Origin: Maritimibacter dapengensis
Lineage (GTDB): Bacteria > Pseudomonadota > Alphaproteobacteria > Rhodobacterales > Rhodobacteraceae
Direction: 5' to 3'
Length of the DNA stretch: 64,000 nucleotides
Assembly: GCF_019218265.1 (NCBI RefSeq)
Contig: NZ_JAHUZE010000003.1
Span: 124,001 to 188,000 of the forward strand
A program made the translations under genes and the position numbers. How positions within the stretch are numbered: the first letter of the stretch is position 1; each line of letters begins with the position of its first letter. The notes beneath the pieces are model-generated. The model saw only the letters and a program-made list of their open reading frames with translations. It was not told the origin of the DNA and did not search any database. Shown here piece after piece: positions 30,754 through 45,614 of the stretch.

Positions 30754-31980
30754 CTACGGAAGCAAAGCGAGTGGCACGGCGGCAACTGCGGATCCGAGGC
30801 CCGAGACATTGGTGACAGCACTGTCGTAACAAGCAATCGCGTCACCTGGGAGAACAAAGGGATCGTAGTCGTCCCGATCCGCCCGACGCATCATGTCCTC
30901 GATGTCGCGCTCAATGACCACGGAAACCTGCGTAAGCGGATTGCGCGAATACAGCGCCGCCGACCGGTGCCCGTTGGTCATGCGGGCCCCGCCGACGCAG
31001 TTCGTATCCACCACGGCCTGCATGTAACGCGTGCCATAGGGCACTTCACGAACGTCCTTGCCAATGCCGGCCAGAGCGTTGCCGGCAGCAGGCTGGGTCA
31101 GGTTCGACAGAAACAGCGAGATCCCCGGCGGGCTGATCGGGCTCGGAACCATCAGGTGATCCTGAAAGCACTGCCGACTGGGCACATGAAGTTCGTCCCC
31201 GGTCAAGAGCATGATGTCGGCACGGTCACGGCCCGTGATGACCTCGCGCAGGTCAAGGGTATGAAGCCGTCCGCCGCGGCGCAGTTCCACGGCCGAGAGG
31301 TCGGCGTCCGGCCTAATCCCACCGGCCGCACGCAAGGCATTCGCGAGATCACGGGCCTCGGTTGAAGCGCCGAGCGTTTCCTGACGTCCCACGTCTATCT
31401 CTGCGCCACGTATGCCACCGATTTCGACGGGACGCGGCTCGAACACGGCGCCGGTCACACCGACACTGGCAGAGGCGTAGTCCTGAAGCCGAACCGAGAC
31501 GAGCGGTCGGGTGGCAAAGTGCCCGGCTTCCATGAGCGCGGCCTCGATGTCGGCTTCGATTTCCTCGATCCGGCGACCCTGCGCGGGCACGGGGTCAAGG
31601 AATGGGAGCCGGATCACACCGTCGCGCGAGACCTCGTAGCGGTCCGAAAAGGTCTCGTCGCCCGATACGAGCACTTCGACCAGATCTCCGCGAGAAAGAA
31701 ACTCGCCCTGAAGCGCCACCATGCTGCCGACAATCCCTTTGCCGCCTTCGAAACTGTCTCCGACCGCGCCCCCACGTTCGGGGAGACATTTCGATGCGTT
31801 GATGTCGCGGGCGCGCAGAAACGCCTCGGTGCCGCGTCGTTCCGGTGTGCGATACTGCGCTTGGTAACCGTCACCTTGGGCGACGGGTTCAAGGTTGTCG
31901 TGTTCGATGGTCGCGCTACAGGCGCTCAGACCAAGCGCAGCAAGAAAAGTGGCCGCGCGGGGGGCGTTGATAAGGGGCAT
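30754..31980 (-). CDS. Wza-like polysaccharide export lipoprotein of the second locus
   Basis: 408 residues. The lipobox LSAC places lipid on Cys21. A Poly_export domain (about residues 95-165: RGDLVEVLVSGDETF, YEVSRDGVIRLPFLDPVPAQG) and an SLBB-type segment (SVGVTGAVFEPRPVEIGG) follow. The C-terminal third (about 280-408) has paired Cys (RQCFQDH, DTNCVGG, IACYDS) and a final hydrophobic stretch. It would form the outer-membrane export channel for region 2. It diverges from the flippase gene; a CTATCC-N4-GGATAG palindrome lies about 90 bp upstream. Confidence 0.85.
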   Translation of the reverse strand: MPLINAPRAATFLAALGLSACSATIEHDNLEPVAQGDGYQAQYRTPERRGTEAFLRARDINASKCLPERGGAVGDSFEGGKGIVGSMVALQGEFLSRGDLVEVLVSGDETFSDRYEVSRDGVIRLPFLDPVPAQGRRIEEIEADIEAALMEAGHFATRPLVSVRLQDYASASVGVTGAVFEPRPVEIGGIRGAEIDVGRQETLGASTEARDLANALRAAGGIRPDADLSAVELRRGGRLHTLDLREVITGRDRADIMLLTGDELHVPSRQCFQDHLMVPSPISPPGISLFLSNLTQPAAGNALAGIGKDVREVPYGTRYMQAVVDTNCVGGARMTNGHRSAALYSRNPLTQVSVVIERDIEDMMRRADRDDYDPFVLPGDAIACYDSAVTNVSGLGSAVAAVPLALLP

Positions 31981-32061: not shown

Positions 32062-32077
32062 CTATCCTGCCGGATAG
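32062..32077. promoter_or_regulatory. Palindromic site A (CTATCC-TGCC-GGATAG)
   Basis: A perfect 6-bp inverted repeat with a 4-bp spacer in the divergent gap between the Wza-like gene (about 90 bp away) and the flippase gene (about 108 bp away). It is one of four copies of the pattern CTAYCC-N4-GGRTAG, all intergenic and all in region 2. The right flank TCG is shared with sites C and D. Likely operator of the NarL-type regulator at 39.2-39.9 kb (inference). Confidence 0.65.
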
Positions 32078-32177
32078 TCGTTTACCCTCCTGTCCGATCC
32101 GGCTCACCCGGTGCGCACAGGACACGACGGGGCATGTGCGCAAGAACAGAACACATCCAATCTGTTCCGAGACCCCA

Positions 32178-33413
32178 ATGCACCGCTCACATCTTACAGG
32201 CCCATTCGCGAGAAACATCGCCGCCTACGGCGCGTCCGAAGTCGCGGCAAAGCTGTCGCGTATTTTCGTTGTCATGGCAGTCGCCCGTAGTCTGGGTGCT
32301 GAAGAGATCGGGATAGCGGCAGCGGCGATGGCGGCCTCGGACATCCTGAAATCCCTCACGGAAAACGGGGTCGGCCAGCGTCTCATCGCGGCGCGGGACA
32401 GCGACCTCGCCGCGCTTTGCCGCACCGCATTGCGCATCTTCTGGGTCTGGGCGCTCGGGCTGTTCGTCGTTCAGCTCGGCATCGGCGCGACCCTTACCTG
32501 GCTGTCTGGCGATCCGATGCTTCTGCTGCTTGTCGCGGTTCTAGCGGGTGAATTTCTGTTCATGCCCGCGGGGCTCGTGCAGGCCGCGCTCGCCATGCGG
32601 GCAGGCAAGCTGAAACAGACCGCCGCTATTGCCGGAGTGCAGGTGGTCGGGGCCAATGCCCTCACCGTCGTACTGGTCCTGATCTGGCCATCACCTCTCG
32701 CGCTGGTCGTTCCAAAGCTCCTGTCCGCGCCGATCTGGCTGATCGCGATGCGCCGCCTTCATCCCTGGTCGCCGGACAGTTGCATCGCGCCGTCGCCGGT
32801 CCGCCCCTTCATGACGTTCGGCGCGCCCGTTCTGGGGGTCGAGATGGTCAAAGCAATGCGGCTTCATGCGGACAAGCTGCTTGTCGGTGCGCTTTTGGGG
32901 CCAGAGGCGCTGGGCCTTTATTTCATGGCCTTCAATGCGGGGCTGGGTCTCGCAAACTCCTTTTCGTTCGCCTTCGCCAGCGTCCTCTTCCCGCACCTCG
33001 TCACCTCGGAAAGCCGCATGAATGCATTGCGGCAGGCATTCGCGCTCGGCATCGGAGTGATCGCGCCGGTCGTGGTCCTCCAATCGCTCGCCGCCCCCTT
33101 CTATGTGCCGATCCTGTTCGGGTCCGAGTGGGCGCACCTGTCCGAGATCGTTTCGATCCTGTGCCTTGCCGCCATCCCTGGCATCGTCTGGACAACGGCG
33201 GCGGGTTGGTTGCGGGCCGAAGCCCGGCCCGGGACCGAGTTCCGCGCCACCGTAATCATGGCGCTCGCACTGCTGGGCAGCACGATCGTCATGGCGCCCC
33301 ATGGCCTCGTCGCAATCGCGACCGGATATCTCGTGACGGCAGCCATAACACAACTGACCCTATCGCTTCCCGCTCTTGCAGCGGCCTTCGTCCAACGTTC
33401 GCAGGAGGTCTGA
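32178..33413 (+). CDS. Wzx-like flippase of the second locus (MOP superfamily)
   Basis: 411 residues from the ATG at 32178; a GTG at 32136 would add 14 residues. About 12 hydrophobic helices are present and the N-terminal part has SEVAAKLSRIFVVMAVARSL as in polysaccharide transporters. It would flip the region-2 lipid-linked repeat. Unlike the AT-rich flippase of region 1, this gene is GC-rich like the core genome. Four bp separate it from the first GT2 gene, which has AGGAGGT inside the flippase end. Confidence 0.82.
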   Translation: MHRSHLTGPFARNIAAYGASEVAAKLSRIFVVMAVARSLGAEEIGIAAAAMAASDILKSLTENGVGQRLIAARDSDLAALCRTALRIFWVWALGLFVVQLGIGATLTWLSGDPMLLLLVAVLAGEFLFMPAGLVQAALAMRAGKLKQTAAIAGVQVVGANALTVVLVLIWPSPLALVVPKLLSAPIWLIAMRRLHPWSPDSCIAPSPVRPFMTFGAPVLGVEMVKAMRLHADKLLVGALLGPEALGLYFMAFNAGLGLANSFSFAFASVLFPHLVTSESRMNALRQAFALGIGVIAPVVVLQSLAAPFYVPILFGSEWAHLSEIVSILCLAAIPGIVWTTAAGWLRAEARPGTEFRATVIMALALLGSTIVMAPHGLVAIATGYLVTAAITQLTLSLPALAAAFVQRSQEV

Positions 33414-33416
33414 CCG

Positions 33417-34334
33417 ATGCCGCGTTTTTCCGTCGTTATCCCCGTATTTAATGCCGCGGACACACTGACCGAAACCATCGAGGCAATCCGCTCCCAGACC
33501 TGCACTGACTGGGAGGTGCTTCTCGTGGATGACGGATCCACGGATGGATCACGCGTTCTCATGGATGCCATCACCCAAGACCCCCGTTTTCGCCAGCTAA
33601 ACAACCCCGGCAAGGGGCCGAGCGCCGCACGGAACTACGGCGTGGTCCGCGCCCGGGGCGAGGTCATAGCGTTTTGCGACGCCGATGACCTTTGGGAACG
33701 CGACAAGCTCGCGCGTGTCGCTGCAATACTCGCGCGCGCCGATGTCTCGGCCGTGTTCGGCAAGGTCGCTTTCTATCCAACCGGGAAACAGGGGCCGCTA
33801 CGCTTGTCCACAGTGCCGGAGGAAGCGTTGACGGTGCCGATGCTGCTTGCAGAAAACCCGGTCTGTACCATGTCGAATCTGTCGATCAGGGCGGACGTTC
33901 TCCAGGCGCACGCCGGGCTGGATGAGGGTATGGTTCACAACGAAGACCTCGACCTGCTCGTGCGGCTCGTCGCCGGGGGTGCGACCATTCTCGGCGACGA
34001 CCGGCTGCACCTGCGATACCGCACCGATGCGCGCGGGTTGTCGTCGAGTCTTACCAAGATGCGGGCTGGGCGGCAGGAAGTGCTGCGGCGTGCTGCCGCG
34101 ATGGGATACCAACCCGACAACCGGCACCATACCGTGTTCCTTCGCTACCTCACCCGCCGTGCGCTCCGGATGGACGACGGGGCCCACGCCGCATTTCGTT
34201 TCGCGCTCGAAGGTTTGTCCACCGCGCCTTGTGCATTTCTGACCCCGGCGCGGCGCGGTGTCCCAACGGCAACGGCCGCCCTCATCGCGCCGCTCTTGCC
34301 CAAACGCCTGCGCCGCGCGCTTTTCGCCACCTGA
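33417..34334 (+). CDS. GT2-family glycosyltransferase
   Basis: 305 residues. A GT-A fold: FSVVIPVFNAADTLTETI, LLVDDGSTDGS, GPSAARNYGVVRARGEVIAF split across the nucleotide site, and the DXD motif CDADDLWERDK (about residues 89-99). The C-terminal part contains HNEDLDLLVRL, the usual acid-base E-D region. It adds one sugar of the region-2 repeat unit at the inner-membrane cytoplasmic face; donor and acceptor cannot be told. It begins right after the flippase and is followed 12 bp later by a second GT2 gene with which it shares layout. Confidence 0.88.
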   Translation: MPRFSVVIPVFNAADTLTETIEAIRSQTCTDWEVLLVDDGSTDGSRVLMDAITQDPRFRQLNNPGKGPSAARNYGVVRARGEVIAFCDADDLWERDKLARVAAILARADVSAVFGKVAFYPTGKQGPLRLSTVPEEALTVPMLLAENPVCTMSNLSIRADVLQAHAGLDEGMVHNEDLDLLVRLVAGGATILGDDRLHLRYRTDARGLSSSLTKMRAGRQEVLRRAAAMGYQPDNRHHTVFLRYLTRRALRMDDGAHAAFRFALEGLSTAPCAFLTPARRGVPTATAALIAPLLPKRLRRALFAT

Positions 34335-34346
34335 AAGGATCCGACC

Positions 34347-35333
34347 ATGCCCCATGCCTCAATCGTCGTCCCCGCGTTCAACGTGGAGGCCACGCTGGCC
34401 GACACGATGGTGTCGCTCCTCAAGCAGAGCTTTCTCGATTTAGAGATCATCGTTGTAGATGACGGCAGTTACGACCGGACACCCGAGATCGCAGATGGGT
34501 TTTGCGCCGATCCCCGCGTGCGGGTCGTGCGCCAGTCGAACCGTGGGCTGGCGGGCGCCCGGAACACCGGAATCGCCGCGGCACAGGGGCAGATCATCGG
34601 GTTCTGCGACTCTGACGATCTCTGGCACCCCGAAAAGCTGTCCGCTCATGTCCACCATCTTCAGATGAACCCGTCCCTGGGGATGAGCTATTCCGGCTCG
34701 GAACTGATCGACGACGATGGAACCTCGCTCGGATTGTTCCAGAAACCGCGCACGCGGCGTATCACGGCCAAGCACATGTTCTTGCGAAATCCGGTCGGCA
34801 ACGGGTCGTCGCCGGTCTTTCGTCGGACCGCACTGGATGACCTGGCATACCGACCGTCCCGGGAAACAATGCGCGATTGGGTCTTCGATGAAACGTTTTC
34901 CCAGTCAGAAGACATCGAGTGCTGGATGCGCCTGATGCTCACCACCGATTGGGAAGTTGAGGGGATCGACGATCCGTTGACGCTCTACCGAGTGAATGGT
35001 GCAGGATTGTCGGCCGGGACCGAGCGTCAACTCGCGAGTTGGGAGCGGATGGTCGAGAAACATGCAGGAATTGCGCCCGTCTTTATCGCGAAACATGCCA
35101 GCCCGGCCCGTGCTTATCAGCTGCGATACCTTGCACGCCGCGCCGTGAGCGCCCGTGACGGAGACCGGGCGCGGGCGTTGATCACACGCTCGTTCCGCGC
35201 CTCATTGCATCCCCTCGTCCATGAGCCGGCCAAGACCATTGCCACGCTTGTCGCCTGCATCCTCGTCGGGACGCCCGGAGCGGTGCTCGTGGACGCGGCC
35301 CAATCCACCCTGCGCCGACTGCGTCGCGCCTGA
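34347..35333 (+). CDS. GT2-family glycosyltransferase
   Basis: 328 residues. Signature strands ASIVVPAFNVEATLADTM, IIVVDDGSYDRTPEI, RGLAGARNTGIAAAQG and the DXD GFCDSDDLWHPEKL; QSEDIECWMRLML carries the E-D catalytic region. It is similar in plan to the preceding GT2 (33417-34334), suggesting old duplication. The C-terminal helix region (about 290-318) is hydrophobic and may touch the membrane. AAAGGA lies just upstream of the ATG. Confidence 0.88.
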   Translation: MPHASIVVPAFNVEATLADTMVSLLKQSFLDLEIIVVDDGSYDRTPEIADGFCADPRVRVVRQSNRGLAGARNTGIAAAQGQIIGFCDSDDLWHPEKLSAHVHHLQMNPSLGMSYSGSELIDDDGTSLGLFQKPRTRRITAKHMFLRNPVGNGSSPVFRRTALDDLAYRPSRETMRDWVFDETFSQSEDIECWMRLMLTTDWEVEGIDDPLTLYRVNGAGLSAGTERQLASWERMVEKHAGIAPVFIAKHASPARAYQLRYLARRAVSARDGDRARALITRSFRASLHPLVHEPAKTIATLVACILVGTPGAVLVDAAQSTLRRLRRA

Positions 35334-35350
35334 ACCTGAAAGGTAAAACC

Positions 35351-36355
35351 ATGACGACAATCATCCATCTGGTCGACGACACGACTCCGGGCGGCGTCAT
35401 GCGCGTCATCGAACACGTCCAGTCCGCAGCGGGCCTGGGACATCTGGGGCGGCATAGTGTCGTTATGATCCCCAAAACCGGGCGCGGTCCAACTCGCATC
35501 CACGGAGACGTCATCGTATCGCATCTCACGATGAACTGGCGTCGGTTGCCGTGGCTGATCCAACTTCGCGCGGCGCATGCGACAACGCCGATGGTGCACG
35601 TCGAGCACAGCTATACCGCTGGCTTCCTGCGCCACAATGTACCGCATCCGGCCCGTTTTATGACCATGGTGCGCGTCGCTTTTTCCCTGTTCGACCGGGT
35701 CGTTCCTGTGAGCGATACGCAAGCGTATTGGGTTCTGGACAAGGGCCTCGCCGATCCGTCCCAAATCACCACGATACCCTCAGCGGTCGACGTGTCGCTA
35801 TTCGACTCGATTCCGTCTGCCACCGGTCCGATTAAGGTCATTGGCGCGTTTGGCCGGTTGGAGCCACAGAAAGGCTTCGATGTCCTGATCCGGGCGATGC
35901 GGGCAAGTCCGCGGCAAGACCTTCAGCTTCACATCTTCGGCCAAGGCAGCGAACGCGAGGCGCTCACGTCCCTTGCCGGGGCTGACCCACGCATCTGCTT
36001 CGGTGGCTTTGTACCGGAACCGGCCAAAGCGATGGCGTCTGTGGATGCGGTCGCGATGCCGTCACGATGGGAAGCCTACGGCCTTGTCGCACTAGAGGCG
36101 CGGGCGGCTGGACGGATGCTTCTGGCGTCTCCCCTTGACGGGCTCAATGACCACATCGCCGCCGGTGCCCACCCCGTTCGTGACAATTCCGTCCGTGGCT
36201 GGAGTGAGACATTGACCGCTCTCGACCGCCCGGACATCGCGAAACTCGACCGTGCCCGTTCCGATGCAAACGCCGCCTCGGCCCGGTTTGCGCAGAGCTG
36301 GACGCTGCTCCTTCATGATCTCCTTGCGCCCGAAGATAAAGCGCAAGCCGCCTGA
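35351..36355 (+). CDS. GT4-family glycosyltransferase
   Basis: 334 residues. A GT-B enzyme: the C-terminal half has GAFGRLEPQKGFDVLIRAM, LHIFGQGSEREAL and the retaining-GT4 motif AMPSRWEAYGLVALEARAAG (EX7E type, near residues 237-256). The N-terminal domain is GDDTTPGGVMRVIEH-like. It adds a further sugar in region 2. Last gene of the plus-strand Wzx-GT-GT-GT unit; a strong terminator follows 21 bp past the stop. AAAGG precedes the ATG. Confidence 0.87.
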   Translation: MTTIIHLVDDTTPGGVMRVIEHVQSAAGLGHLGRHSVVMIPKTGRGPTRIHGDVIVSHLTMNWRRLPWLIQLRAAHATTPMVHVEHSYTAGFLRHNVPHPARFMTMVRVAFSLFDRVVPVSDTQAYWVLDKGLADPSQITTIPSAVDVSLFDSIPSATGPIKVIGAFGRLEPQKGFDVLIRAMRASPRQDLQLHIFGQGSEREALTSLAGADPRICFGGFVPEPAKAMASVDAVAMPSRWEAYGLVALEARAAGRMLLASPLDGLNDHIAAGAHPVRDNSVRGWSETLTALDRPDIAKLDRARSDANAASARFAQSWTLLLHDLLAPEDKAQAA

Positions 36356-36375
36356 TAGCGACAATGCTCGCCAAT

Positions 36376-36407
36376 GGCCGCGTCCGTAACCACGGGCGCG
36401 GCCTTTT
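36376..36407 (+). terminator. Rho-independent terminator of the Wzx-GT operon
   Basis: GGCCGCG-T-CCGT (36376-36387), loop AACC, then ACGG-G-CGCGGCC (36392-36403) followed by TTTT (36404-36407). An 11-pair stem with one T-G wobble, 21 bp after the GT4 stop and just before the 3' end of the convergent polymerase gene. Confidence 0.85.
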
Positions 36408-36411
36408 CGTT

Positions 36412-37677
36412 TCAGTCGTCAGACACTTCACGCGCATGCAGGCCAAGGATCATCAGACCGGGCCAAAGCATGTAGGCCTCGATCTCGACATTCTCGCCGA
36501 AGCTCAGAAGGATCAGGGTCATCATGATCCCCAGCGGCAAGCGACCGCGCGGATTGCGGGTGGAATCGATCACGGCAATCAGGGTTTGCCAGACCATCGG
36601 TACGAGCAACGCCAGAAAACCAACCAACCCTTTGACGAACAACAGACCCCACCATGTGTGATGGCTGCCAATGGGCATGTATTCCACGATATGCGGTCCC
36701 GGCTGGACACGGCCATGGCCGAACCACACGGCCTCCTCGCGCCAGCGTTCTCCGGCAATGCGTTGCAGCGTTTCGCGCACCCGCGTGCTGTCGGCCCGAG
36801 CCTCCTTGAAGGTGCGCACGGCGTCACCCGCAAGCCGGGCGACGGCGGGACCGATCACGGCGAAGGAGGCCGCGATCCCCGCCGCGAGTTTCCAGGCCCA
36901 GCCTTTCAGCAGAAAAGGCAGAAGTCGTGGCCCGATGGTGCAGGCGGTCAGGCCGACCAGCCCCATGCGCGACTTCGAGGCGAGGATCATGAGCGTCGCG
37001 GCGGCAAGCCCGATAGCTTTCCAGCGCGGATTGCGTTCTTCCAACGCAAACAGCGCCATGACGACGCCCAGAAGGGCCGCGAAGGGGGACCACGGGGCAT
37101 AGAACTGCCAGCGCGGCGTCCAGCTTCCGGGATCCCAGGTGAAGAAATAGACACTGAAATATTCCGGTCCCGGCCCACCAACGGCCTTAAGCGGCGAGGT
37201 AAAGATGCGCTCGGGCAACCCGATATAGGGTGCGGCGAGCATGATCGGGGCGAGGATCAGGGTCCACAGACCAATCACCATCTGCCCTCGGACATAGATC
37301 TCGCGGCGAATGGGAAGCACAGCGCCTGCCAGCGGGAATAATGCGACCAGCGCCCAGCCTTTGGCCCAGCCGATAGTCGATTTGATGATCTGGCCGGTCG
37401 AGTAAGTCCAGTTGAGATGCCCTACCCAAAGCGCGATCAGCATGACACCCATACCGATGATCCACGCCCAGACCACGGGCGGAACCCGACCCGTCGCGCG
37501 CAGGTCCGGTCGGATCGCAGGACCGAGGTAAAGGACCAAAACGGCAAGGCCCGCCAGCGTCCAGCCGAGGACCGGGCCGACCACGTAGAGTGCCCCGACG
37601 GCATAGAAACCCCATGTGAAAGTCTGGGTCTTGTAGACGATCCGCTCGGCAAGATTTCTCGGAACAATATCGCTCAT
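36412..37677 (-). CDS. Wzy-like polysaccharide polymerase of the second locus
   Basis: 421 residues with about 10-11 membrane helices. A large periplasmic loop (about residues 290-345) contains RETLQRIAGERWREEAVWFG and GSHHTWWGLLFVKGL, the H-x-x-W/G pattern of Wzy_C/O-antigen ligases. It would polymerise the region-2 repeat. It overlaps the Wzz gene by 4 bp (ATGA at 37674-37677), so length control and polymerisation are translationally coupled. Confidence 0.78.
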   Translation of the reverse strand: MSDIVPRNLAERIVYKTQTFTWGFYAVGALYVVGPVLGWTLAGLAVLVLYLGPAIRPDLRATGRVPPVVWAWIIGMGVMLIALWVGHLNWTYSTGQIIKSTIGWAKGWALVALFPLAGAVLPIRREIYVRGQMVIGLWTLILAPIMLAAPYIGLPERIFTSPLKAVGGPGPEYFSVYFFTWDPGSWTPRWQFYAPWSPFAALLGVVMALFALEERNPRWKAIGLAAATLMILASKSRMGLVGLTACTIGPRLLPFLLKGWAWKLAAGIAASFAVIGPAVARLAGDAVRTFKEARADSTRVRETLQRIAGERWREEAVWFGHGRVQPGPHIVEYMPIGSHHTWWGLLFVKGLVGFLALLVPMVWQTLIAVIDSTRNPRGRLPLGIMMTLILLSFGENVEIEAYMLWPGLMILGLHAREVSDD

Positions 37678-39131
37678 GCGGGGTCAGGCTTGGCGAGAAG
37701 TTTCGAAATCAGCGGTCGCCGCATCCAGCCCAATCCAAGGCCCATTAGAAGCATCAGCGTTGCCGCAAAACCGGCCGCATAGGCCAGCTTCTCGCGAGGG
37801 GAAGACGGCGTGTCCGGCAACGACGGATCTTCCAGCACCTGCACCAGAGGATATGAGGCATAGACATCTGATTTCGTTGTCTGGGACCGCGCCATTGCCG
37901 AGGCGAACACCGCTTCTGCCACCTGGAAGTCCCGTTGCAGGTCTTCGAGACGGGCGGCGGGCTCCATAAGCGCCGCGACCTTGTCCTCGTCGGCGGCGAG
38001 TTGCGCTTCGAGTGTGGCGAGCTCGGCCCCGGTGCCCGCGCGCGCCACATCCGCCGCGACGAGATCGGACAGAAGCGCCGCGCGGCCACCAATCGGCGCG
38101 AGATCAAGCTTTTCGATTTCATCCCCGCTCAGACCGGTGATGTGGCGCGCGCGATTGCGGGCTTCCTCCAGTGTCGCTGTGTAATTCGTTGCCTGACCCA
38201 CGCGCACCGGATGCGCCGGCCCATATTGTTGTGCCGCGATGGCGAGCGTCGCGCTCTGCAAGGCCATCTGCTCGGCAAGCGCAGCGAATTCGCTGTCGGC
38301 ATGGAGCTTGATCGTCGCCGCTGCAAGGCGCGGGGACAGGCCGAGTGTCGCGGTAAGGGCCGCGACCTTTTGCTCGGCCTCGTCCTGCTCCGACCGCAGA
38401 TCGAGCACGCGGCGGCGCAGGGTGTCGGTTTCTTCCACAATCTGTTCATATTGATCGGGAGAGATCAGGCCGGTCTCACGTTGCAACGCCTCCATCTCGG
38501 CGCGGGTCGCGGCGACCGAGGCACGGTAATCGCCGATCGCGCCTTCGCCACTGGTTTCACGGGTGCCAAGCTCGTCGGCGCGCAACACGTCGAGTTCCGC
38601 GAAAAAGGCCGCAATCAAGGCCGTTCCGCGCTCCTGCGCGGCGTCCGGCGAACCTGCGGTGAGTGACAGGCGGATCATGCCGGTCTGGTCGATCAGTTCC
38701 ACCCGCGGCGCGCCGAAATCACGGCGGCTCGTCCCGACGGCGTCTGCCGCCCGTACGATGATCCGGTCCGCGCCGATCAGTCGCTTGTAGGTCACTGTCG
38801 GGCTGACCGCGGAATTCGCGAACGGGGAACTGGCGTGCGAGGATGCCTGACCGATACTGTCGAGCGTGACCGAAGCCGAGGCCCCGGAACCCGGCAGGAT
38901 CAGAACCGCGTCGCTGGTATAGCGGGCAGGCGCGGTCGAGAGGTAGCCGAGGATCGGAGACCAGATCATTGCAGCACCCATGAGCGTGACGCCGGCATAT
39001 CGCGGGAGCCTTTGCAGATCATCCAGCCGCCCACCAAGCAGGAGCCGAATGAGGCCGAGCTGACGCAGCGGCATACGGATCGGGCGCAAGGCGCGCAGGG
39101 GCGCGAGAAAGGGCAATATCGACACGGTCAT
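37674..39131 (-). CDS. Wzz/GumC-like chain-length determinant of the second locus
   Basis: 485 residues. TM1 at about residues 48-70 (VTLMGAAMIWSPILGYLST), a periplasmic region with coiled coils (about 200-300 and 330-420: DTLRRRVLDLRSEQDEAEQK), and TM2 near 452-472 preceded by LPDTPSSPREK. No kinase domain and no adjacent kinase gene, so it is a stand-alone PCP co-polymerase. The ribosome site GAAGGAGA lies in a hairpin directly upstream (see 39136-39152), and the operator-like palindrome B is about 98 bp upstream. Confidence 0.83.
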   Translation of the reverse strand: MTVSILPFLAPLRALRPIRMPLRQLGLIRLLLGGRLDDLQRLPRYAGVTLMGAAMIWSPILGYLSTAPARYTSDAVLILPGSGASASVTLDSIGQASSHASSPFANSAVSPTVTYKRLIGADRIIVRAADAVGTSRRDFGAPRVELIDQTGMIRLSLTAGSPDAAQERGTALIAAFFAELDVLRADELGTRETSGEGAIGDYRASVAATRAEMEALQRETGLISPDQYEQIVEETDTLRRRVLDLRSEQDEAEQKVAALTATLGLSPRLAAATIKLHADSEFAALAEQMALQSATLAIAAQQYGPAHPVRVGQATNYTATLEEARNRARHITGLSGDEIEKLDLAPIGGRAALLSDLVAADVARAGTGAELATLEAQLAADEDKVAALMEPAARLEDLQRDFQVAEAVFASAMARSQTTKSDVYASYPLVQVLEDPSLPDTPSSPREKLAYAAGFAATLMLLMGLGLGWMRRPLISKLLAKPDPA

Positions 39132-39135
39132 GACG

Positions 39136-39152
39136 GTCTCCTTCGCGGAGAC
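39136..39152 (-). promoter_or_regulatory. Stem-loop containing the Wzz ribosome-binding site
   Basis: Read on the minus strand: GTCTCC-GCGAA-GGAGAC, a 6-bp perfect stem with a 5-base loop. Its 3' arm is the Shine-Dalgarno AAGGAGA, 5 bases before the ATG of the Wzz gene. When folded the ribosome site would be hidden, so translation of Wzz-Wzy may be controlled. Inference from sequence. Confidence 0.45.
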
Positions 39153-39220
39153 TTTAGGTCACGCGTCGCGGTCCTGCGCGGGTGGAAAAGGCGGGCGGGC
39201 GGGCGCGGATGCGTGGCCCC

Positions 39221-39236
39221 CTATCCGGTCGGGTAG
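39221..39236. promoter_or_regulatory. Palindromic site B (CTATCC-GGTC-GGGTAG)
   Basis: Second copy of CTAYCC-N4-GGRTAG, with one mismatched (T/G) pair. It lies between the regulator gene's stop (39244) and the Wzz start, about 98 bp upstream of the Wzz ATG, so it probably controls the Wzz-Wzy operon. Confidence 0.65.
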
Positions 39237-39243
39237 TCCGGTG

Positions 39244-39855
39244 TCAGTAAAGCCCCGCTTCGCGGGCGACGAGCGCAGCCTGCGTGCGATTGTTGACGTC
39301 GATCTTTCGATACAGTGTCTTGAGATAGAGTTTGATCGTCGGCTCGGTCAGGTCGAGATCACGCGCGATTTCCTTGTTCGACTTGCCTTCGGTCAACCCT
39401 TTGAGAACCTGCATTTCGCGATCGGCGAGCTTCTCGGCAAGGGGATGCTTCTGTTCCGCTTTCGCCTGCATGAAGTCGATCGGCACGTATTGCTCACCCA
39501 TCGCCATGAACCGCACTGCATTGATCAACGACTTTGCAGAAAGGGTCTTCGGCAAGAATCCGGCCGCTCCAAGCGCCAACGCCTTCTCCGCTACACCGCG
39601 GTTCGCGTTCCCGGTGATAAGCGCGACCTTCTGGTCGCCCTCACGCGCAAGGGCCGATTCGAGCCCGTCGAACCCGTTCATGCCAGGCATGTTCAGATCG
39701 AGCAGAACCAGATCAAAGGCATCGCCTTCATCCATCGCCGTCATCGCACCTGGAAAATCAGCAGCGGTCTCGGTTTCGAATCCGTCCACCGTATCGAGAA
39801 AAGCGACGAGCGTGTCGCGCAGAAGATCATGATCGTCGGCAATTAGAATTCGCAT
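39244..39855 (-). CDS. NarL/FixJ-family response regulator (orphan)
   Basis: 203 residues. The receiver domain (1-118) has the acidic pair D7-D8, phospho-acceptor Asp53 in LVLLDLNMPG and Lys103 in GFLPKTLS. The LuxR-type HTH (about 140-200) shows LADREMQVLKGLTEGKSNKE and IARDLDLTEPTIKLYLKTLY. It is a transcription factor controlled by phosphorylation. No kinase is adjacent; the nearest is the hybrid kinase with an Hpt domain 3.2 kb away, past the polysaccharide genes. It lies between two copies of the palindrome, so it is the best candidate to bind them. Confidence 0.9.
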   Translation of the reverse strand: MRILIADDHDLLRDTLVAFLDTVDGFETETAADFPGAMTAMDEGDAFDLVLLDLNMPGMNGFDGLESALAREGDQKVALITGNANRGVAEKALALGAAGFLPKTLSAKSLINAVRFMAMGEQYVPIDFMQAKAEQKHPLAEKLADREMQVLKGLTEGKSNKEIARDLDLTEPTIKLYLKTLYRKIDVNNRTQAALVAREAGLY

Positions 39856-39947
39856 TGGTCTGCTCTTTGGGATCGGTCAGTCGGTCGTTCCGCCAAATTG
39901 AACCGAAATTGGGTCAAAATTTAGGTGCAGGTAACACTTATCGGTTG

Positions 39948-40053
39948 ATTGGATTCTCGGCAAAGGCAATTCCGGCGGGTGTACTACCCGAATGGATAGT
40001 CGCCAACGACGAACGCGGCAACCGTCACTCGTCGGAGCATTCGAGAATCCGAT
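39948..40053. repeat. Inverted repeat arms flanking palindrome C
   Basis: ATTGGATTCTCG (39948-39959) and CGAGAATCCGAT (40042-40053) are inverted copies, 11 of 12 bases matching, 82 bases apart. Palindrome C (39984-39999) lies between them. This could be a looping or second regulator site in the divergent gap between the response regulator and the fused transferase gene. Confidence 0.4.
39984..39999. promoter_or_regulatory. Palindromic site C (CTACCC-GAAT-GGATAG)
   Basis: Third copy of CTAYCC-N4-GGRTAG. It is about 129 bp upstream of the response-regulator start (minus strand) and 140 bp upstream of the fused WecG/sugar-transferase ATG (plus strand), so it may serve either or both, including autoregulation. 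Confidence 0.65.
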
Positions 40054-40138
40054 TTGGCTGCCGTCCTGTCCCTCTGCTCAGTGGAAATACATCACTCGTT
40101 TCAGGACCTTAGGTTCAAGCAACCGAAGGACCCACGCA

Positions 40139-41491
40139 ATGAAACACATCCGCGAGTTCGATCTCCAACCGCTGGCACCGACCACAAAATCCCTGTTCGG
40201 GCTGAACGTGGTTAACGAAACCCGTGCCCACACCATTGACGTCTTGCTGTCGGGCGGCCGTTCTCGCGTGGCTTTTCTGAACGCACATTGCGTCAACGTC
40301 GCTGCACGGGATCGGGCCTATGCCAATGCGCTCAGGTCGGCAGACGCGATCTTGCCCGACGGAGCCGGTATCGAAATCGCGCATAAGTTCATCGGCAGCC
40401 GCATGACCGAAAACCTCAACGGCACCGATTTTACACCGCTTCTACTTGCCGAAGCGGCGCAGCGCGGGAAATCGGTTTTTCTGTTCGGCGGTCGCCCGGG
40501 CACCGCAGAGGCGGCCGCCGAAAAACTCATGGATGATATTCCCGGCCTCGTCATAGCAGGCACGCGGGACGGGTTTGGAGGCGCAGTCGACACCGACGCA
40601 GCCATCCGGGCGATCAATGCGAGCGAAGCAGATATCCTGCTTGTCGCCATGGGCGTACCCCGCCAGGACCTCTGGCTGGCCGAAAATGGGCATCTGCTCA
40701 GGCCCGGCCTTCTAATCGGCGTCGGTGCGCTTTTCGATTTTCTCGCCGGCAACGTTTCCCGTGCGCCGCGTGCGCTCCGGGCAATGCGTGGCGAGTGGCT
40801 CTGGCGGCTGGCGTCCGAACCGCGCCGGATGTTTCGCCGCTACGTGATCGGCAATCCGGAATTCATCCTGCGGGCGCTGACACAGGTTTCAGGCGACACC
40901 ATCGCCAAGCGCGTCTTCGATATTCTTGTGGCCTCGGCAGTGATCCTTGCCTTCGCGCCGCTTTTTGCCATTGCGGCGCTTGCGATCCGAACCGAAACTC
41001 GGGGGCCGGTGTTCTTCCGTCAAACCCGTGTCGGGCGCGGCGGCCAGACGTTTTCCATGCTGAAGTTCCGGTCGATGGTGGTCGACGCCGAGGCGCGGCG
41101 CGCTGCGCTCCTCGACAAATCGGACCGGACCGGGGTCTGCTTCAAGTCCCGCACCGACCCGCGCATCACACGTGTCGGTCGTATACTGCGCCGCTATTCC
41201 ATCGATGAATTGCCGCAGATCTTCAACGTTCTCAAAGGCGAAATGTCCATCGTCGGACCCCGCCCAGCGCTTCCGAGCGAAGTCGCGGCATACCCCAAAC
41301 GCGCCGTCGAGCGGCTCAGCGTCAAACCTGGTCTCACCGGTGTCTGGCAGGTTTCGGGCCGTGCCGAGATCGGGTTCGACAAGATGGTGGACATGGATCT
41401 GGCCTACGTCCGCTCGCGCTCGGTCCTGCTCGACGTCGTCCTTCTCGCACTCACCTTCCGCGCCGTGATCGGCGGTCGCGGTGCCTATTGA
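40139..41491 (+). CDS. Fused WecG/TagA glycosyltransferase + polyprenyl-phosphate sugar-phosphate transferase
   Basis: 450 residues from the ATG at 40139, which has GAAGGA upstream; an upstream in-frame start at 39992 runs through the operator region and is unlikely. Residues about 18-240 are a GT26 WecG/TagA/CpsF domain (LPDGAGI with Asp74, LFGGRPGTAEAAAEKL, GVGALFDFLAGNVSRAP, GEWLWRLASEPRRM). Residues about 255-450 are a short-form PHPT: KRVFDILVASAVIL membrane helix, FRQTRVGRGGQTFSMLKFRS, YSIDELPQ with catalytic D356-E357, VVGPRP. One protein could load the first sugar phosphate on undecaprenyl phosphate and add the second sugar. Confidence 0.88.
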   Translation: MKHIREFDLQPLAPTTKSLFGLNVVNETRAHTIDVLLSGGRSRVAFLNAHCVNVAARDRAYANALRSADAILPDGAGIEIAHKFIGSRMTENLNGTDFTPLLLAEAAQRGKSVFLFGGRPGTAEAAAEKLMDDIPGLVIAGTRDGFGGAVDTDAAIRAINASEADILLVAMGVPRQDLWLAENGHLLRPGLLIGVGALFDFLAGNVSRAPRALRAMRGEWLWRLASEPRRMFRRYVIGNPEFILRALTQVSGDTIAKRVFDILVASAVILAFAPLFAIAALAIRTETRGPVFFRQTRVGRGGQTFSMLKFRSMVVDAEARRAALLDKSDRTGVCFKSRTDPRITRVGRILRRYSIDELPQIFNVLKGEMSIVGPRPALPSEVAAYPKRAVERLSVKPGLTGVWQVSGRAEIGFDKMVDMDLAYVRSRSVLLDVVLLALTFRAVIGGRGAY

Positions 41492-41515
41492 TACTCAAGA
41501 AACAGGAGTTAATTC

Positions 41516-42403
41516 ATGACCCGTATTCGTAAAGCCGTTTTTCCCGTCGCCGGTCTCGGCACCCGGTTCCTGCCCGCCACCAAGTCGGTGCCCAAGGAGA
41601 TGTTGCCGCTCATCGACCGCCCGTTGATCCAATACGCCATTGATGAAGCACGTGCGGCGGGCATCGAAGAATTCATCTTCGTGACCGCCGTAGGAAAGGG
41701 GGCGCTCGAGGATTACTTCGACACCGCCGAAATGCTGGAGAAACGCCTTGAGGCATCCGGCAAGACCGAACTTCTCGCGCGGCTGGAGCAGACCCGGATG
41801 AAAGAAGGCGCCTTGACAATTCTGCGCCAAGACCGCCCGCGCGGCCTGGGTCACGCCGTGAGGATCGCCCGTCGTGCGGTCGGGGACGAACCCTTCGCCG
41901 TGTTGCTCCCCGATGATGTGATCCGCGCGGATCGCCCTGCGCTCGCCCAGATGGTCGAGGCATATAGCAACACCGGGGGCCACATGGTCGCGACGATGGA
42001 AGTTCCGCGTCAGGATGTCTCGAAATACGGTGTGCTCGACGTGGCCAGCCGGGATGGCGCGCTGACCCTTGCCGCAGGCATGGTCGAAAAGCCGCGCCCC
42101 GACATCGCGCCCTCGCGTGAGGCCGTGGTCGGACGTTACATCCTAGACCCGTCGATTTTCGGCCGACTGGCCGATGCGGCACCTGGCGCGGGCGGCGAGA
42201 TACAATTGACCGATGCCATCAACGCAGACGCCGCAAGCCGACCAATTCACGGGTGGCGCTTTGCGGGCGAGCGGTTCGACTGCGGGTCACAAGCGGGTTA
42301 CGTCGCCGCCACATTGCGGTACGCGCTGGCCTGCCCCGAACTGGCATCCGTCGTGCATCGAACGATTGACCGGTCGGAGGCGCCGGTGGCTCTGGCCGGT
42401 TGA
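41516..42403 (+). CDS. galU: UTP-glucose-1-phosphate uridylyltransferase
   Basis: 295 residues. N-terminal nucleotidyltransferase motif KAVFPVAGLGTRFLPATKSV and KEMLPLIDRPLIQYAIDEA as in GalU/ExoN, then FAVLLPDDVI and VEKPRPDIAPS. It makes UDP-glucose for EPS donors. The ribosome site AGGAG precedes the ATG by 9 bp; the gene follows the fused transferase after 24 bp and is probably co-transcribed with it. Palindrome D begins 11 bp past its stop. Confidence 0.94.
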   Translation: MTRIRKAVFPVAGLGTRFLPATKSVPKEMLPLIDRPLIQYAIDEARAAGIEEFIFVTAVGKGALEDYFDTAEMLEKRLEASGKTELLARLEQTRMKEGALTILRQDRPRGLGHAVRIARRAVGDEPFAVLLPDDVIRADRPALAQMVEAYSNTGGHMVATMEVPRQDVSKYGVLDVASRDGALTLAAGMVEKPRPDIAPSREAVVGRYILDPSIFGRLADAAPGAGGEIQLTDAINADAASRPIHGWRFAGERFDCGSQAGYVAATLRYALACPELASVVHRTIDRSEAPVALAG

Positions 42404-42413
42404 TCCAAAGCGA

Positions 42414-42429
42414 CTATCCGTTCGGGTAG
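42414..42429. promoter_or_regulatory. Palindromic site D (CTATCC-GTTC-GGGTAG)
   Basis: Fourth and longest copy: the arms extend to CGACTATCC and GGGTAGTCG, nine base pairs with one T/G mismatch. It lies 80 bp upstream of the periplasmic-protein/kinase pair, and another CTATCC half-site follows at 42434-42439. This would place the sensor genes under the same control as the polysaccharide genes. Confidence 0.68.
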
Positions 42430-42508
42430 TCGCTCTATCCCATGGTCCGCTAACGCCCTCAAGGTCCACTGTGGTAGGAAACCACATCGGTAGTTGAAGG
42501 TTGTCGAA

Positions 42509-43033
42509 ATGAGCACGACTCAAGGAACCCTCAGCGGCAAGCTCGCGCTTGTCGCATGGATCATCTTCCATCCCTTAGCGGCTGGGGCGAACGACCTTCA
42601 GATGCCGACAGGCGATGTTGTTCTCAGCGTGACCGGCAACATCGCCGCCACCAATGACGGCAATGCGGCAATCTTCGACGAGGACATGCTACGCGCCCTT
42701 GGCGAAACGACCTTTGAAACGACCACGATCTGGACCGATGGCGTTCAGAGTTTCACCGGCGTTTCGCTGAAAGACCTTCTTGACGAACTCGGCGTGGACA
42801 ACGGTACGCTGGAGGCCAGGGCGCTCAACGACTATGCCGTCGAGATTCCTGTTTCCGACGCCGTCGACGGGGGTCCAATCGTGGCCTACGCCCGCAACAA
42901 TAACGCCATGTCCATCCGTGACAAGGGCCCGCTCTGGATCGTCTATCCCTACGATTCCAACGATGACTACGCGAGCGAAACGATCTATTCGCGATCGATC
43001 TGGCAACTGGACCGGATAGACGTGCAGGATTAA
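42509..43033 (+). CDS. Periplasmic SUOX-fold (oxidoreductase molybdopterin-binding-like) protein without cysteine
   Basis: 174 residues from ATG 42509 (TTG 42494 possible). A signal peptide ends near AAGAN-DLQM. The body resembles the small periplasmic SUOX/YedY-like domain: VVLSVTGNI, SFTGVSLKDLLDELG, VEIPVSDAVDGGPIVAY, GPLWIVYPYD. The whole protein has no Cys, so the molybdenum-ligating Cys of true sulfite-oxidase-type enzymes is missing; a binding or sensing role is more likely than redox catalysis. The hybrid kinase starts 37 bp downstream, suggesting a sensor partner. No cofactor can be assigned. Confidence 0.68.
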   Translation: MSTTQGTLSGKLALVAWIIFHPLAAGANDLQMPTGDVVLSVTGNIAATNDGNAAIFDEDMLRALGETTFETTTIWTDGVQSFTGVSLKDLLDELGVDNGTLEARALNDYAVEIPVSDAVDGGPIVAYARNNNAMSIRDKGPLWIVYPYDSNDDYASETIYSRSIWQLDRIDVQD

Positions 43034-43070: not shown

Positions 43071-45614
43071 ATGGAAAATCTGCGCCAAAGCTACGTGTTC
43101 CGCAATCTCGCGATTGCCTTCGCCGCGGTCCTCGGGATCGCGGTCGCGGTGTATCTTGGCGGTGAGGTCCTGCGAAAATTGAACCTATTGGAGACGGCGG
43201 CGTCGGACAACGTGCAATGGACGCTCAGCCAGGTCGAGGTGGAATTCCTGGATCTCGATCTGGCAACCAAATCCTACATGATCGGCGACATCGACGATCT
43301 CGACGTGATCCGGCGCGAGTTCGATATATTCTACAGCCGGATTGGAACCCTGTCCGAAGGCGACCTGTATCTCGGTCTTCGAAACGAAACAACCTTTGCC
43401 GACGCGCTCGCCACCATTCGCGGGTTTCTCGAGGCTGCGGTGCCGATCATCGACAGCACCGACTCCGAAATGGAGGCCGACCTCCCCGAACTCAGCCGCG
43501 ACATCGACGCAATCCGGTTGCCCGTGCGGGAACTGTCGGCGACAGGCCTCACCTATTTCGCGGAACAAGCCGACATGCGCCGAGGCGAGACCGCAGATAC
43601 ACTCGCGTTTCTCGCAGCCGTAACGCTAGCGGTTCTTTCCGCCCTCGCATTGGTTTCCATCGTCCTGTTCCGGGTGAACCGGATAAACGTGCAACGGGCG
43701 GCGACAATCGAGATGTCGTCGCGCCGAATGGCGACGATCGTGCAATCGTCGCTCGACGCCATCGTCGCCGTCGACCGCGCTGGCAGGATTATTGAGTTCA
43801 GCGCGGCAGCCGAAGAAATTTTCGGGCATCGGAAATCCGATGTGGTCGGGCGCGACATGGGTGAGATCATCGTGCCAGACGCCCTGCGCGGCGCTCATGA
43901 AGCGGGCATGTCGCGCTATCGCGAGACCGGCGAAAAGCGTGTCGCCGGAAAAGGCCGGATCAACGTCGAAGCCATCCGTGCCGATGGCACGGTCTTTCCG
44001 GTCGAGATATCGATCCAATCCGCCGACAGCAGCGATGGAGAGATTTTCGTCGGGTTCCTGCGCGACATTTCCCGCCGTGTGGCCGCCGAACGCGAATTGG
44101 TCGAAGCACGAGACAAGGCGGTCGCCGGCGAGAAGGCGAAGTCCGAGTTCCTTGCCGTCATGAGCCACGAAATGCGTACGCCGCTGAACGGTCTTCTGGG
44201 CACGCTTTCCCTACTCAAAGACACGCGCCTGACATCGAAACAGGCGGATTATGTCGACAACCTCCAGGTCTCGGGCGACCTGTTGCTGTCGCATATCAAC
44301 GACGTTCTGGACGTCACGAAATATGAGGCAGGCGCACTGACCATAAAGCCTGTGCCGACCGACCTCTCGGCCCTTGTGCAGAACGTGGTCGACAGCCAGC
44401 GGGACCTCGGCTCCGAAGCGGGCAATACGATCCAGTGGCGCTGGGTTGGAGAGCCTTTGCACCATGTGATGACCGAACCCATGCGGCTGAGCCAGGTGTT
44501 GATCAACCTTGTCGGGAACGCGGTCAAATTCACCCAGAACGGCACGATCACGATAGAACTGCTTGCGGAAAACACAGACACCGGGGCTGATCTGACAATT
44601 CTCGTTCAGGACACCGGTATCGGGATCGCACCGGAAGACATCGAACGCATGTTTCAGGATTTTGCGACCGCCGACACCTCCTACGGCCGCGCGCGCAGCG
44701 GCACTGGACTGGGCCTTGGAATTGCGCGGCGTCTCGTCACGGCGCTTGGCGGCAAGATTGGCGCCGAGAGCGAACTGGGTGAGGGCAGCACGTTCTGGGT
44801 GCGCCTTCCCGTCACACTTGCAGCGCCAGTGGGCAAGACTCGCGAAACCGCGGCAACTGCCGACAACCATCACGCCGAACGCCGAAATGTCCTGATCATC
44901 GAAGACAACGAGATCAACCGTATCGTGCTGAAAGACATGCTTCTTGCGGAAGGGCATCGCGTCACGGAAGCCGTCGACGGGCTGGAGGGCGTGGACCACG
45001 CGCAGCAACAGCCATTCGACCTCATCCTGACCGACATTTCCATGCCCGTGCTGGACGGCATCGCCGCCACACAGGTCATACGCGAGAAGCACGGGCCAAA
45101 TCATACGACGCCAATCTACGCTGTGACCGCCCACGCGATGCCCGACGAAATTAACAGGTTCCTGCAAGCCGGCATGAGCGGCGTCCTGGCAAAGCCGATC
45201 AACAGGGCCGAACTTCGAAAAATTCTGGCGTCTCGGCAACTCGAACCAACGCAACAATCAACTCAGACTGTCATCGTGAACGAGAAGAGCGTGGAGGGGC
45301 TTCGCCGCGATATCGGGATCGAAACCGTCTCAAATCTCTACAGGAAATTCCGCACCGATGCGTCGACGATCCTGAACGACATGTCGGAACATCCGCCGCA
45401 AACCGACCCGCGACCGAAGATCGGACACCTGAGCCATAAACTCGCGGGGAGCGCTTCGATATTCGGCGCCGAAGAATTCGTGCAATCCTTGAGAGACATC
45501 GAACAGGACGCCACGTCGAACGAGGACACGACCCTCATTCTGAAAAAAGTCGAAGCCGCGAAAGGCGTTTGGAAAAGCACCGAAGCCGTGCTCGATCGAG
45601 CCTTCAAAGAGTAG
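43071..45614 (+). CDS. Hybrid histidine kinase: periplasmic sensor, PAS, HisKA, HATPase, REC, Hpt
   Basis: 847 residues. TM1 about 12-32, a helical periplasmic sensor region (about 33-183), TM2 about 184-207, PAS (about 222-345: IVQSSLDAIVAVDRAGRI), HisKA with His366 in AVMSHEMRTPLNG, an ATPase with LINLVGNAVKFTQNG, DTGIGIAPED and GTGLGLGIARRL, a receiver with Asp655 in LILTDISMPVLDG, and a C-terminal Hpt with His789 in LSHKLAGSA. The layout gives a full phosphorelay ending on Hpt, which needs a separate response regulator. The orphan NarL-type regulator at 39.2-39.9 kb is the likely one. The co-located SUOX-like protein may feed the periplasmic sensor. Confidence 0.92.
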   Translation: MENLRQSYVFRNLAIAFAAVLGIAVAVYLGGEVLRKLNLLETAASDNVQWTLSQVEVEFLDLDLATKSYMIGDIDDLDVIRREFDIFYSRIGTLSEGDLYLGLRNETTFADALATIRGFLEAAVPIIDSTDSEMEADLPELSRDIDAIRLPVRELSATGLTYFAEQADMRRGETADTLAFLAAVTLAVLSALALVSIVLFRVNRINVQRAATIEMSSRRMATIVQSSLDAIVAVDRAGRIIEFSAAAEEIFGHRKSDVVGRDMGEIIVPDALRGAHEAGMSRYRETGEKRVAGKGRINVEAIRADGTVFPVEISIQSADSSDGEIFVGFLRDISRRVAAERELVEARDKAVAGEKAKSEFLAVMSHEMRTPLNGLLGTLSLLKDTRLTSKQADYVDNLQVSGDLLLSHINDVLDVTKYEAGALTIKPVPTDLSALVQNVVDSQRDLGSEAGNTIQWRWVGEPLHHVMTEPMRLSQVLINLVGNAVKFTQNGTITIELLAENTDTGADLTILVQDTGIGIAPEDIERMFQDFATADTSYGRARSGTGLGLGIARRLVTALGGKIGAESELGEGSTFWVRLPVTLAAPVGKTRETAATADNHHAERRNVLIIEDNEINRIVLKDMLLAEGHRVTEAVDGLEGVDHAQQQPFDLILTDISMPVLDGIAATQVIREKHGPNHTTPIYAVTAHAMPDEINRFLQAGMSGVLAKPINRAELRKILASRQLEPTQQSTQTVIVNEKSVEGLRRDIGIETVSNLYRKFRTDASTILNDMSEHPPQTDPRPKIGHLSHKLAGSASIFGAEEFVQSLRDIEQDATSNEDTTLILKKVEAAKGVWKSTEAVLDRAFKE

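Follow-up and report, generated by a model that had tools for sequence, protein, structure and literature searches.

The 64,000-nucleotide stretch of the Maritimibacter dapengensis genome analysed here (contig NZ_JAHUZE010000003.1, positions 124,001 to 188,000; hereafter the window) carries, in an exopolysaccharide (EPS) locus, four copies of the palindrome CTAYCC-N4-GGRTAG. They probably serve as operator for the response regulator of LuxR/NarL type encoded at 39244-39855, which would itself be the output of a nearby PruR-DTB system controlling the EPS locus. Sequence comparison supports this at three levels, the identity of the parts, the conservation of the operator and the co-variation between regulator and operator.

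The palindrome in the window and in related loci

A pattern scan of the 64-kb window returned exactly four matches, sites A to D (Table 1), at the coordinates given in a preliminary description of this DNA, and no fifth copy appeared even with one mismatch tolerated. As also described there, the arms of site A are perfectly symmetrical and those of sites B, C and D carry one mismatch each. The longer arms noted for site D do exist, but they reach 11 bp (with the mismatch) instead of 9, and this extension differs from the family consensus. Dinucleotide shuffles of the window (n = 100) gave a mean of 0.12 matches and a maximum of 2. Over the whole genome (3,959,618 bases, 20 contigs) the exact motif is found at six places, four of which lie within 10.4 kb here and one other of which overlaps a gene end, showing that it is not scattered through coding sequence. 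Chance clustering is ruled out by the shuffles, the genome count and the conservation described below. With one mismatch allowed there were 15 places in the genome, compared to 34 for a reversed control pattern. Since the control is the more frequent, these matches were considered as noise and dropped as further targets.

From site A to the Wza start there are 81 bp; the flippase begins 58 bp away if GTG 32136 is taken as its start and 100 bp away if ATG 32178 is. Site B lies 7 bp past the regulator stop and 89 bp upstream of the Wzz start, site C 128 bp upstream of the regulator and 139 bp upstream of ATG 40139 of the WecG/transferase fusion, and site D 10 bp past the GalU stop and 79 bp upstream of ATG 42509. 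The spacing of 80-140 bp announced at first is about right for most start codons. All sites are intergenic if the fusion starts at 40139, an inferred start, while the longest open reading frame (ORF), 39992-41491, would overlap site C. The gene behind site D had been taken for a sensor gene; the first gene there encodes a small secreted protein, and the kinase comes next.

Related loci were retrieved by a protein search with the regulator, keeping the best 80 of 543 relatives (63-71% identical, 1.53 Mb in total). Their titles are mostly those of Rhodobacteraceae-type genera or of unclassified alphaproteobacterial metagenome-assembled genomes, with two actinobacterial; the loci are related to one another, hence not independent, and include several near-duplicates. 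Gene matches were found for the kinase in 76 of them (74 at a stricter cut-off), the WecG-transferase in 48, Wzz and Wzy in 45 each, Wzx in 44 and Wza in 41. The exact motif is present in 109 copies in 58 of the 80 loci, never inside a matched gene, and 107 copies occupy gaps equivalent to the four of the window or the same promoters. By position, 55 copies precede the kinase operon (11 of them with the regulator on the other side), 24 lie between regulator and Wzz, 16 between Wzx and Wza, 11 between transferase or GalU and the regulator, two between a GT2 gene and the histidine kinase and one between Wzx and the histidine kinase; two of these 109 assignments rest on a PruR-type query read from 42510, out of frame with respect to 42509. 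Among spacers of 0 to 15, only 4 is used, apart from two matches at 5. Permuting the letters of the arm (120 permutations) gave a median count of 0, the other high value, 88, being that of CYATCC, which overlaps CTATCC.

A position weight matrix (PWM) was built from the 109 matches and the four window sites, so that PWM counts in the same 80 loci are partly circular. At a score of at least 12, a site was detected in 31/41 Wzx-Wza gaps and 38/43 regulator-Wzz gaps, versus 1/47, 0/44 and 0/42 in control gaps, which are shorter (means of 144, 33 and 40 bp vs 229-327 bp), and 0/223 in 300-bp mid-gene windows. Counts of CTA-N10-TAG, a pattern that fixes the outer letters, and those from less similar regulators are less affected by this circularity (see below). 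The relatives give a family consensus CCTAYCC-G-W-W-C-GGRTAGG and not the CGACTAYCC arms that had been proposed from the window. At an offset of 20 bp from the first TAYCC, 28 of the 55 kinase-operon promoters carry another one, where other offsets average 0.15 each; its counterpart in the window is offset by 21 bp.

The two remaining exact sites in this genome are one on C1 (L001/L107), which overlaps a gene end, and one on C2 (L002/L108), 264 bp ahead of an RTX-like ORF. Neither is convincing, and a regulon outside the locus was not retained for this genome. For off-locus copies in other genomes, 18 stretches were hand-picked among the matches listed, which is no full survey; two of these are not off-locus, L113 being the EPS cluster of genome G144 and the site of L119 preceding a PruR gene. 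As judged by eye, the exact copies G000:C2:563878 (L108, L002) and G144:C58:25259 (L112) adjoin genes for RTX/calcium-repeat-like secreted proteins, which could be co-regulated adhesins or a matter of chance. The stray matches L110, L123, L125 and L126, mostly TCTATCC-N4-GGATAG, lie by eye at or near the starts of TetR-like ORFs and are possibly a different operator. Separately, L027 (Nocardioides marinus) and L048 (Enemella evansiae) are Rhodobacteraceae-like regulator loci (68 and 67% identity) under actinobacterial names, and these records therefore look mislabelled or contaminated.

The regulator and the sensor system

The regulator is composed of a receiver with the phospho-acceptor Asp53 in LLDLNMPG and a GerE helix-turn-helix (HTH), as expected of the NarL/FixJ type. 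It had been described as an orphan. It is not, since a hybrid kinase is encoded 3.2 kb away, behind the PruR-type gene of the site D operon, and a kinase match accompanies the regulator in most of the 80 loci as well. Its candidacy as binder, by contrast, was strengthened by the following comparisons.

From the order, 149 genomes were sampled, every one of them labelled as the family to which the window belongs. The motif occurs in all 31 of these genomes with a regulator of at least 61% identity (mean of 2.52 copies), in keeping with the conservation beside homologous regulators that had been anticipated, and in 9/53 genomes without a homologue at E 1e-35 (mean of 0.17, never two). The reversed control pattern followed no such trend, with 23/31 versus 40/53 genomes at the two ends. 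Upstream of the PruR gene, CTA-N10-TAG was observed in 98 of the 128 regulator-PruR pairs lying within 5 kb, compared to 3.65% of random 360-bp windows. The half-site also co-varies with the recognition helix. Regulators with Pro172 and Tyr/Phe182 go with CTAYCC in 125/134 cases, those with Val172 in 15/58, the remainder being mainly CTATAC, CTAACC and CTATGC; other helix classes are represented by four loci, too few to judge. This co-variation follows clades and may stem from a small number of independent changes. For linked pairs below 61% identity the palindrome lies upstream of PruR in 36/56, as against 3/28 PruR genes without a linked regulator (p 2e-6, a value that overstates the difference because related sequences are treated as independent). 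In this count L119, L127 and L157 were omitted as repeats, and L143 is linked via a 33% match. Finally, in genome G144 the EPS cluster is on contig C43 and the regulator and sensor are on C38, and the cluster sites are retained. Taken together, the co-occurrence, the helix co-variation, the excess in linked pairs and G144 point to the neighbouring regulator as, very probably, the protein that binds the palindromes.

The first gene of the site D operon encodes a protein of 174 residues with no Cys, a TIWTDG block with its Trp and a hydrophobic N-terminus, judged by eye to be a signal peptide. Among solved structures, its nearest relatives (7kos, 7kou, 7rkb and 7kp2) are pterin-binding proteins; 7KOS and 7KP2 are identified as PruR of A. 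tumefaciens and of a V. species in the review PMC13259868. We read the Trp of TIWTDG as the one that replaces the Mo-ligating Cys in PruR. The protein would then combine the features that define PruR, namely no Mo-ligating Cys, a Trp instead, about 170 residues and a secretion signal. Among 87 aligned relatives, 49 are Cys-free, and the TIWTeG and NDY blocks are conserved. A molybdenum-enzyme reading of the ORF 42494-43033 was suggested by a Pfam match to Oxidored_molyb (PF00174, 26.5 bits for a cut-off of 24) and was rejected, the closest structures being PruR-type.

The PruR-type gene stands ahead of the kinase in 71 of the 74 loci (of 80) with a kinase. In the window, the kinase has W50-x7-E58 in a domain flanked by two hydrophobic segments, and the two columns are occupied by W in 86/87 and by E or D in 86/87 aligned kinases. 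Its best NCBIfam match is TorS (8.9e-112, 374.9 bits, below the cut-off of 676.5), in line with the TorS/BaeS-type kinase domain of PruR-DTB; GGDEF and EAL, looked for as marks of a PruR-DcpA partner, are not among its Pfam domains. By sequence, the PruR-type gene with a WX7E kinase is the PruR-DTB arrangement as described in PMC13259868, and the sensor resembles a type, described only recently, by which extracellular pterins are detected. In the 149 genomes, a family regulator is no more than 5 kb away from 93/122 PruR-type genes, and 30/34 of the closest regulators have a PruR-type gene within that distance. A wider sample of 190 genomes of the class, three of them of the window's family, contains a PruR-type gene in 30 genomes and a regulator match (E 1e-30) in 24; judged by coordinates, the two are rarely paired beyond the family.

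The genome may also supply the ligand. The form TGX3RXG is tied to pteridine reductases in PMC13259868. The genome has 49 short-chain dehydrogenase/reductase (SDR) matches (48 places examined). Of the 42 ORFs here that contain both SDR motifs, one has this form, L237:141-1043 (G000:C1, about 61 kb). The best solved relatives of this ORF are 5bt9, a 3-oxoacyl-ACP reductase entry (5.7e-53), and FolM 5tgd (8.7e-53); among the 25 matches listed, only the unnamed SDR family PRK09134 exceeds its NCBIfam cut-off, pteridine reductase falling below. It is a candidate FolM/PruA-like pteridine reductase, and the pterin signal could therefore be made in the same cell.

Contrary observations and rival explanations

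Besides the overstated p-value, several observations weigh against this interpretation. On the operator side, an exact site is missing from 22 of the 80 loci; 10 of these still contain a site with a PWM score above 12, and the other 12 do not, several of them lying on short contigs. Only 23/48 gaps between WecG and regulator contain a PWM site of at least 12. Promoter prediction gave no sigma-70-like match at the sites, and the hints of promoters at fixed distance are weak (a -35-like hexamer at +57 in 8/18 Wzx-side sites and at +37/38 in 8/17 Wza-side sites). On the regulator side, the motif becomes rarer as the best regulator is less similar, with 9/17 genomes at 55-60%, 13/34 at 50-54% and 4/14 below 50% identity; in the 20 loci fetched for such regulators, 8 have the exact motif somewhere in the stretch and others a variant. 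CTA-N10-TAG is missing upstream of PruR in 30 of the 128 linked pairs, and outside the family the single genome with PruR-type gene and regulator within 5 kb, G264, lacks the palindrome. Residue 177 of the recognition helix is Tyr in the window (KLY) and His in 100/100 aligned relatives (KLH). As an aside, this Tyr177 and the rarer asymmetric Y/R variant found in three of the four window operators are possibly linked. On the sensor side, 38/87 PruR-type sequences have at least one Cys, whatever its position, and the exact W-x7-E pattern is present in 74/87 kinase ORFs.

The Cys count also bears on the rival that best survives, although we consider it unlikely: operator and regulator would be as proposed, and the PruR-type protein would bind another ligand or none, so that the system would not respond to pterin. 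The case for pterin binding is one of homology, and a residue difference between PruR groups, reported in PMC13259868, may alter pterin specificity. This rival must nevertheless accommodate the pterin-binding nature of the nearest structures, a window protein that is itself Cys-free among relatives with conserved TIWTeG and NDY blocks, and the reductase candidate encoded in the genome.

Alternatively, another transcription factor could bind the palindrome, with the response regulator a mere neighbour. We find this improbable. It could draw on the nine genomes without a detected homologue that have one exact site each. The unlinked PruR genes could be cited for it too. Of 28, 20 are in genomes with a family regulator elsewhere, and only three of these 20 have the palindrome (0/8 for the rest), so that having a regulator elsewhere does not, as a rule, entail the site. 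All three positive cases (L129, L130 and L135) have such a regulator; this carries little weight, given that 17 of the 25 negative cases share it. What argues for the response regulator over another factor is the co-variation of half-site and recognition helix, and the 16 regulator loci where only kinase and/or PruR-type matches stand beside it; an exact site is kept in 7 of these loci and a PWM site in a further 4. Moreover, several stray sites of other genomes are those next to TetR-like genes, which may belong to another operator.

A role of the palindrome as RNA hairpin, terminator or attenuator, which the closeness of sites B and D to the preceding stop codons might evoke, is rendered very unlikely by the absence of sites A to D from the predicted terminator-like sites and by the equal numbers of asymmetric copies giving G-U and C-A on the transcript (in the 80 loci, 4:4 ahead of PruR and 2:2 behind the regulator stop).

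The locus, known relatives and the proposed pathway

The coordinates of the sites, of the proposed regulator, sensor and target genes and of their neighbours are collected in Table 1. For a Wzx/Wzy-type locus, Wza, Wzx and the transferase have Pfam support, Wzz is a weak match, without any in Pfam, and Wzy is assigned from context, with no family match in Pfam or NCBIfam. A strong terminator-like hairpin (36376-36403; 12 pairs, 10 of them G-C) was noticed between the convergent GT4 and Wzy-like genes.

Table 1. Palindromic sites and genes of the locus, in window coordinates
Feature	Position	Strand	Sequence or basis
Wza-like polysaccharide export protein, proposed target	30754..31980	-	PF02563 2.7e-13
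Site A	32062..32077	.	CTATCC-TGCC-GGATAG; divergent Wza-like/Wzx-like gap
Wzx-like flippase, proposed target	32136..33413	+	PF13440 1.6e-29
Glycosyltransferase (GT) genes downstream of flippase	33417-36355
Wzy-like membrane protein	36412..37677	-	Context only; follows Wzz-like gene
Wzz-like chain-length protein, proposed target	37674..39131	-	NCBIfam TIGR03007 2.3e-10, below cut-off
Site B	39221..39236	.	CTATCC-GGTC-GGGTAG; regulator/Wzz-like gap
LuxR/NarL-type response regulator, proposed binder	39244..39855	-	PF00072 1.5e-21, PF00196 1.1e-18 (Pfam)
Site C	39984..39999	.	CTACCC-GAAT-GGATAG; gap regulator/WecG-transferase fusion
WecG-type + Bac_transf fusion transferase, proposed target	40139..41491	+	PF03808 2.1e-56, PF02397 2.5e-65 (on ORF 39992-41491)
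GalU-like nucleotidyltransferase	41516..42403	+	PF00483 4.6e-24
Site D	42414..42429	.	CTATCC-GTTC-GGGTAG; PruR-type/kinase operon promoter region
Half-site TATCC beside site D	42436..42440	+	21 bp from first TATCC
PruR-type periplasmic pterin-binding-like protein	42509..43033	+	PDB 7kos/7kou 4.6e-36, 7rkb 1.7e-32, 7kp2 8.2e-23
DTB-type hybrid histidine kinase	43071..45614	+	Periplasmic domain, PAS, HisKA, HATPase, REC, Hpt (Pfam)

The components are of known kinds. With NarL/FixJ regulators, the window regulator shares the receiver, the GerE HTH and, as proposed, a palindromic operator, and the NarL heptamer TACYYMT is similar to the half-site TAYCC; the operator here has a 6-N4-6 format. Both top NCBIfam equivalog-type matches stay well under their cut-offs (ErdR with 104 of 390 bits, NarL with 103.5 of 250). 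In the Rcs phosphorelay, a hybrid kinase and an Hpt domain act on a LuxR-type regulator of the colanic acid capsule/EPS locus. The phosphorelay layout would be the same here; the sensor side is PruR-type, the Hpt is on the kinase itself and the operator is different.

On the sensor side, PMC13259868 describes PruR-DcpA of Agrobacterium tumefaciens, where a secreted SUOX-fold pterin-binding protein is encoded just upstream of a WX7E membrane regulator. Both systems have the PruR-type gene ahead of a WX7E membrane partner and a polysaccharide/biofilm output, proposed in our case; DcpA works through synthesis and breakdown of cyclic di-GMP (c-di-GMP), in contrast to the hybrid histidine kinase and proposed DNA-binding output here. 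The same source describes, for Ruegeria pomeroyi WP_011045932.1, PruR with a kinase carrying a DcpA-like periplasmic domain, PAS, HisKA, HATPase and REC, all shared with the window kinase, which adds an Hpt. In its accessible text the terms response regulator and exopolysaccharide have no occurrence and no output regulator is named for PruR-DTB; regulator, operator and targets are proposed here. Neither the link between PruR-DTB, regulator and EPS nor the operator was found in print. In agreement with the preliminary description, a search of mainly open-access literature, which does not establish absence from print, found no published match to the motif or the regulator.

From these parts we infer a pathway with pterin input, a phosphorelay to Asp53, dimer binding and EPS control. 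In the periplasm, the secreted PruR-type protein would bind a small, reduced pterin and dock on the hybrid kinase at its periplasmic domain. Phosphate would then pass from His to Asp, to the Hpt His and to Asp53 of the regulator, which would sit as a dimer on CTAYCC-N4-GGRTAG; at the sensor-operon promoter it would have another half-site at a distance of two helical turns. Because the operator fronts the Wza, Wzx, Wzz-Wzy and WecG/transferase units of the putative Wzx/Wzy-type EPS locus as well as the regulator gene and the sensor operon, the system would set both polysaccharide output and, by autoregulation, its own level. As for its sign, an activator is favoured, since most start codons follow a site at a distance of roughly 80-140 bp.

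More broadly, and with about as much doubt as belief, we propose that PruR-DTB and this regulator form a widespread pathway of the Rhodobacterales, a scope taken from the titles of the fetched relatives. In this pathway extracellular pterins would set EPS transcription directly, via an operator of its own whose recognition code can be read, and PruR-DcpA with its c-di-GMP route would run alongside, the pterins perhaps serving as reporters of redox state or of neighbours. Pterins have lately been recognised as biofilm signals of bacteria. The proposal would supply the kinase branch, PruR-DTB, with a regulator, an exact DNA site and target genes, rendering it experimentally testable, and would apply to numerous members of a bacterial group that is large and chiefly marine. 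Operator and helix co-vary naturally, which may offer a start on the DNA-recognition code of this regulator family.

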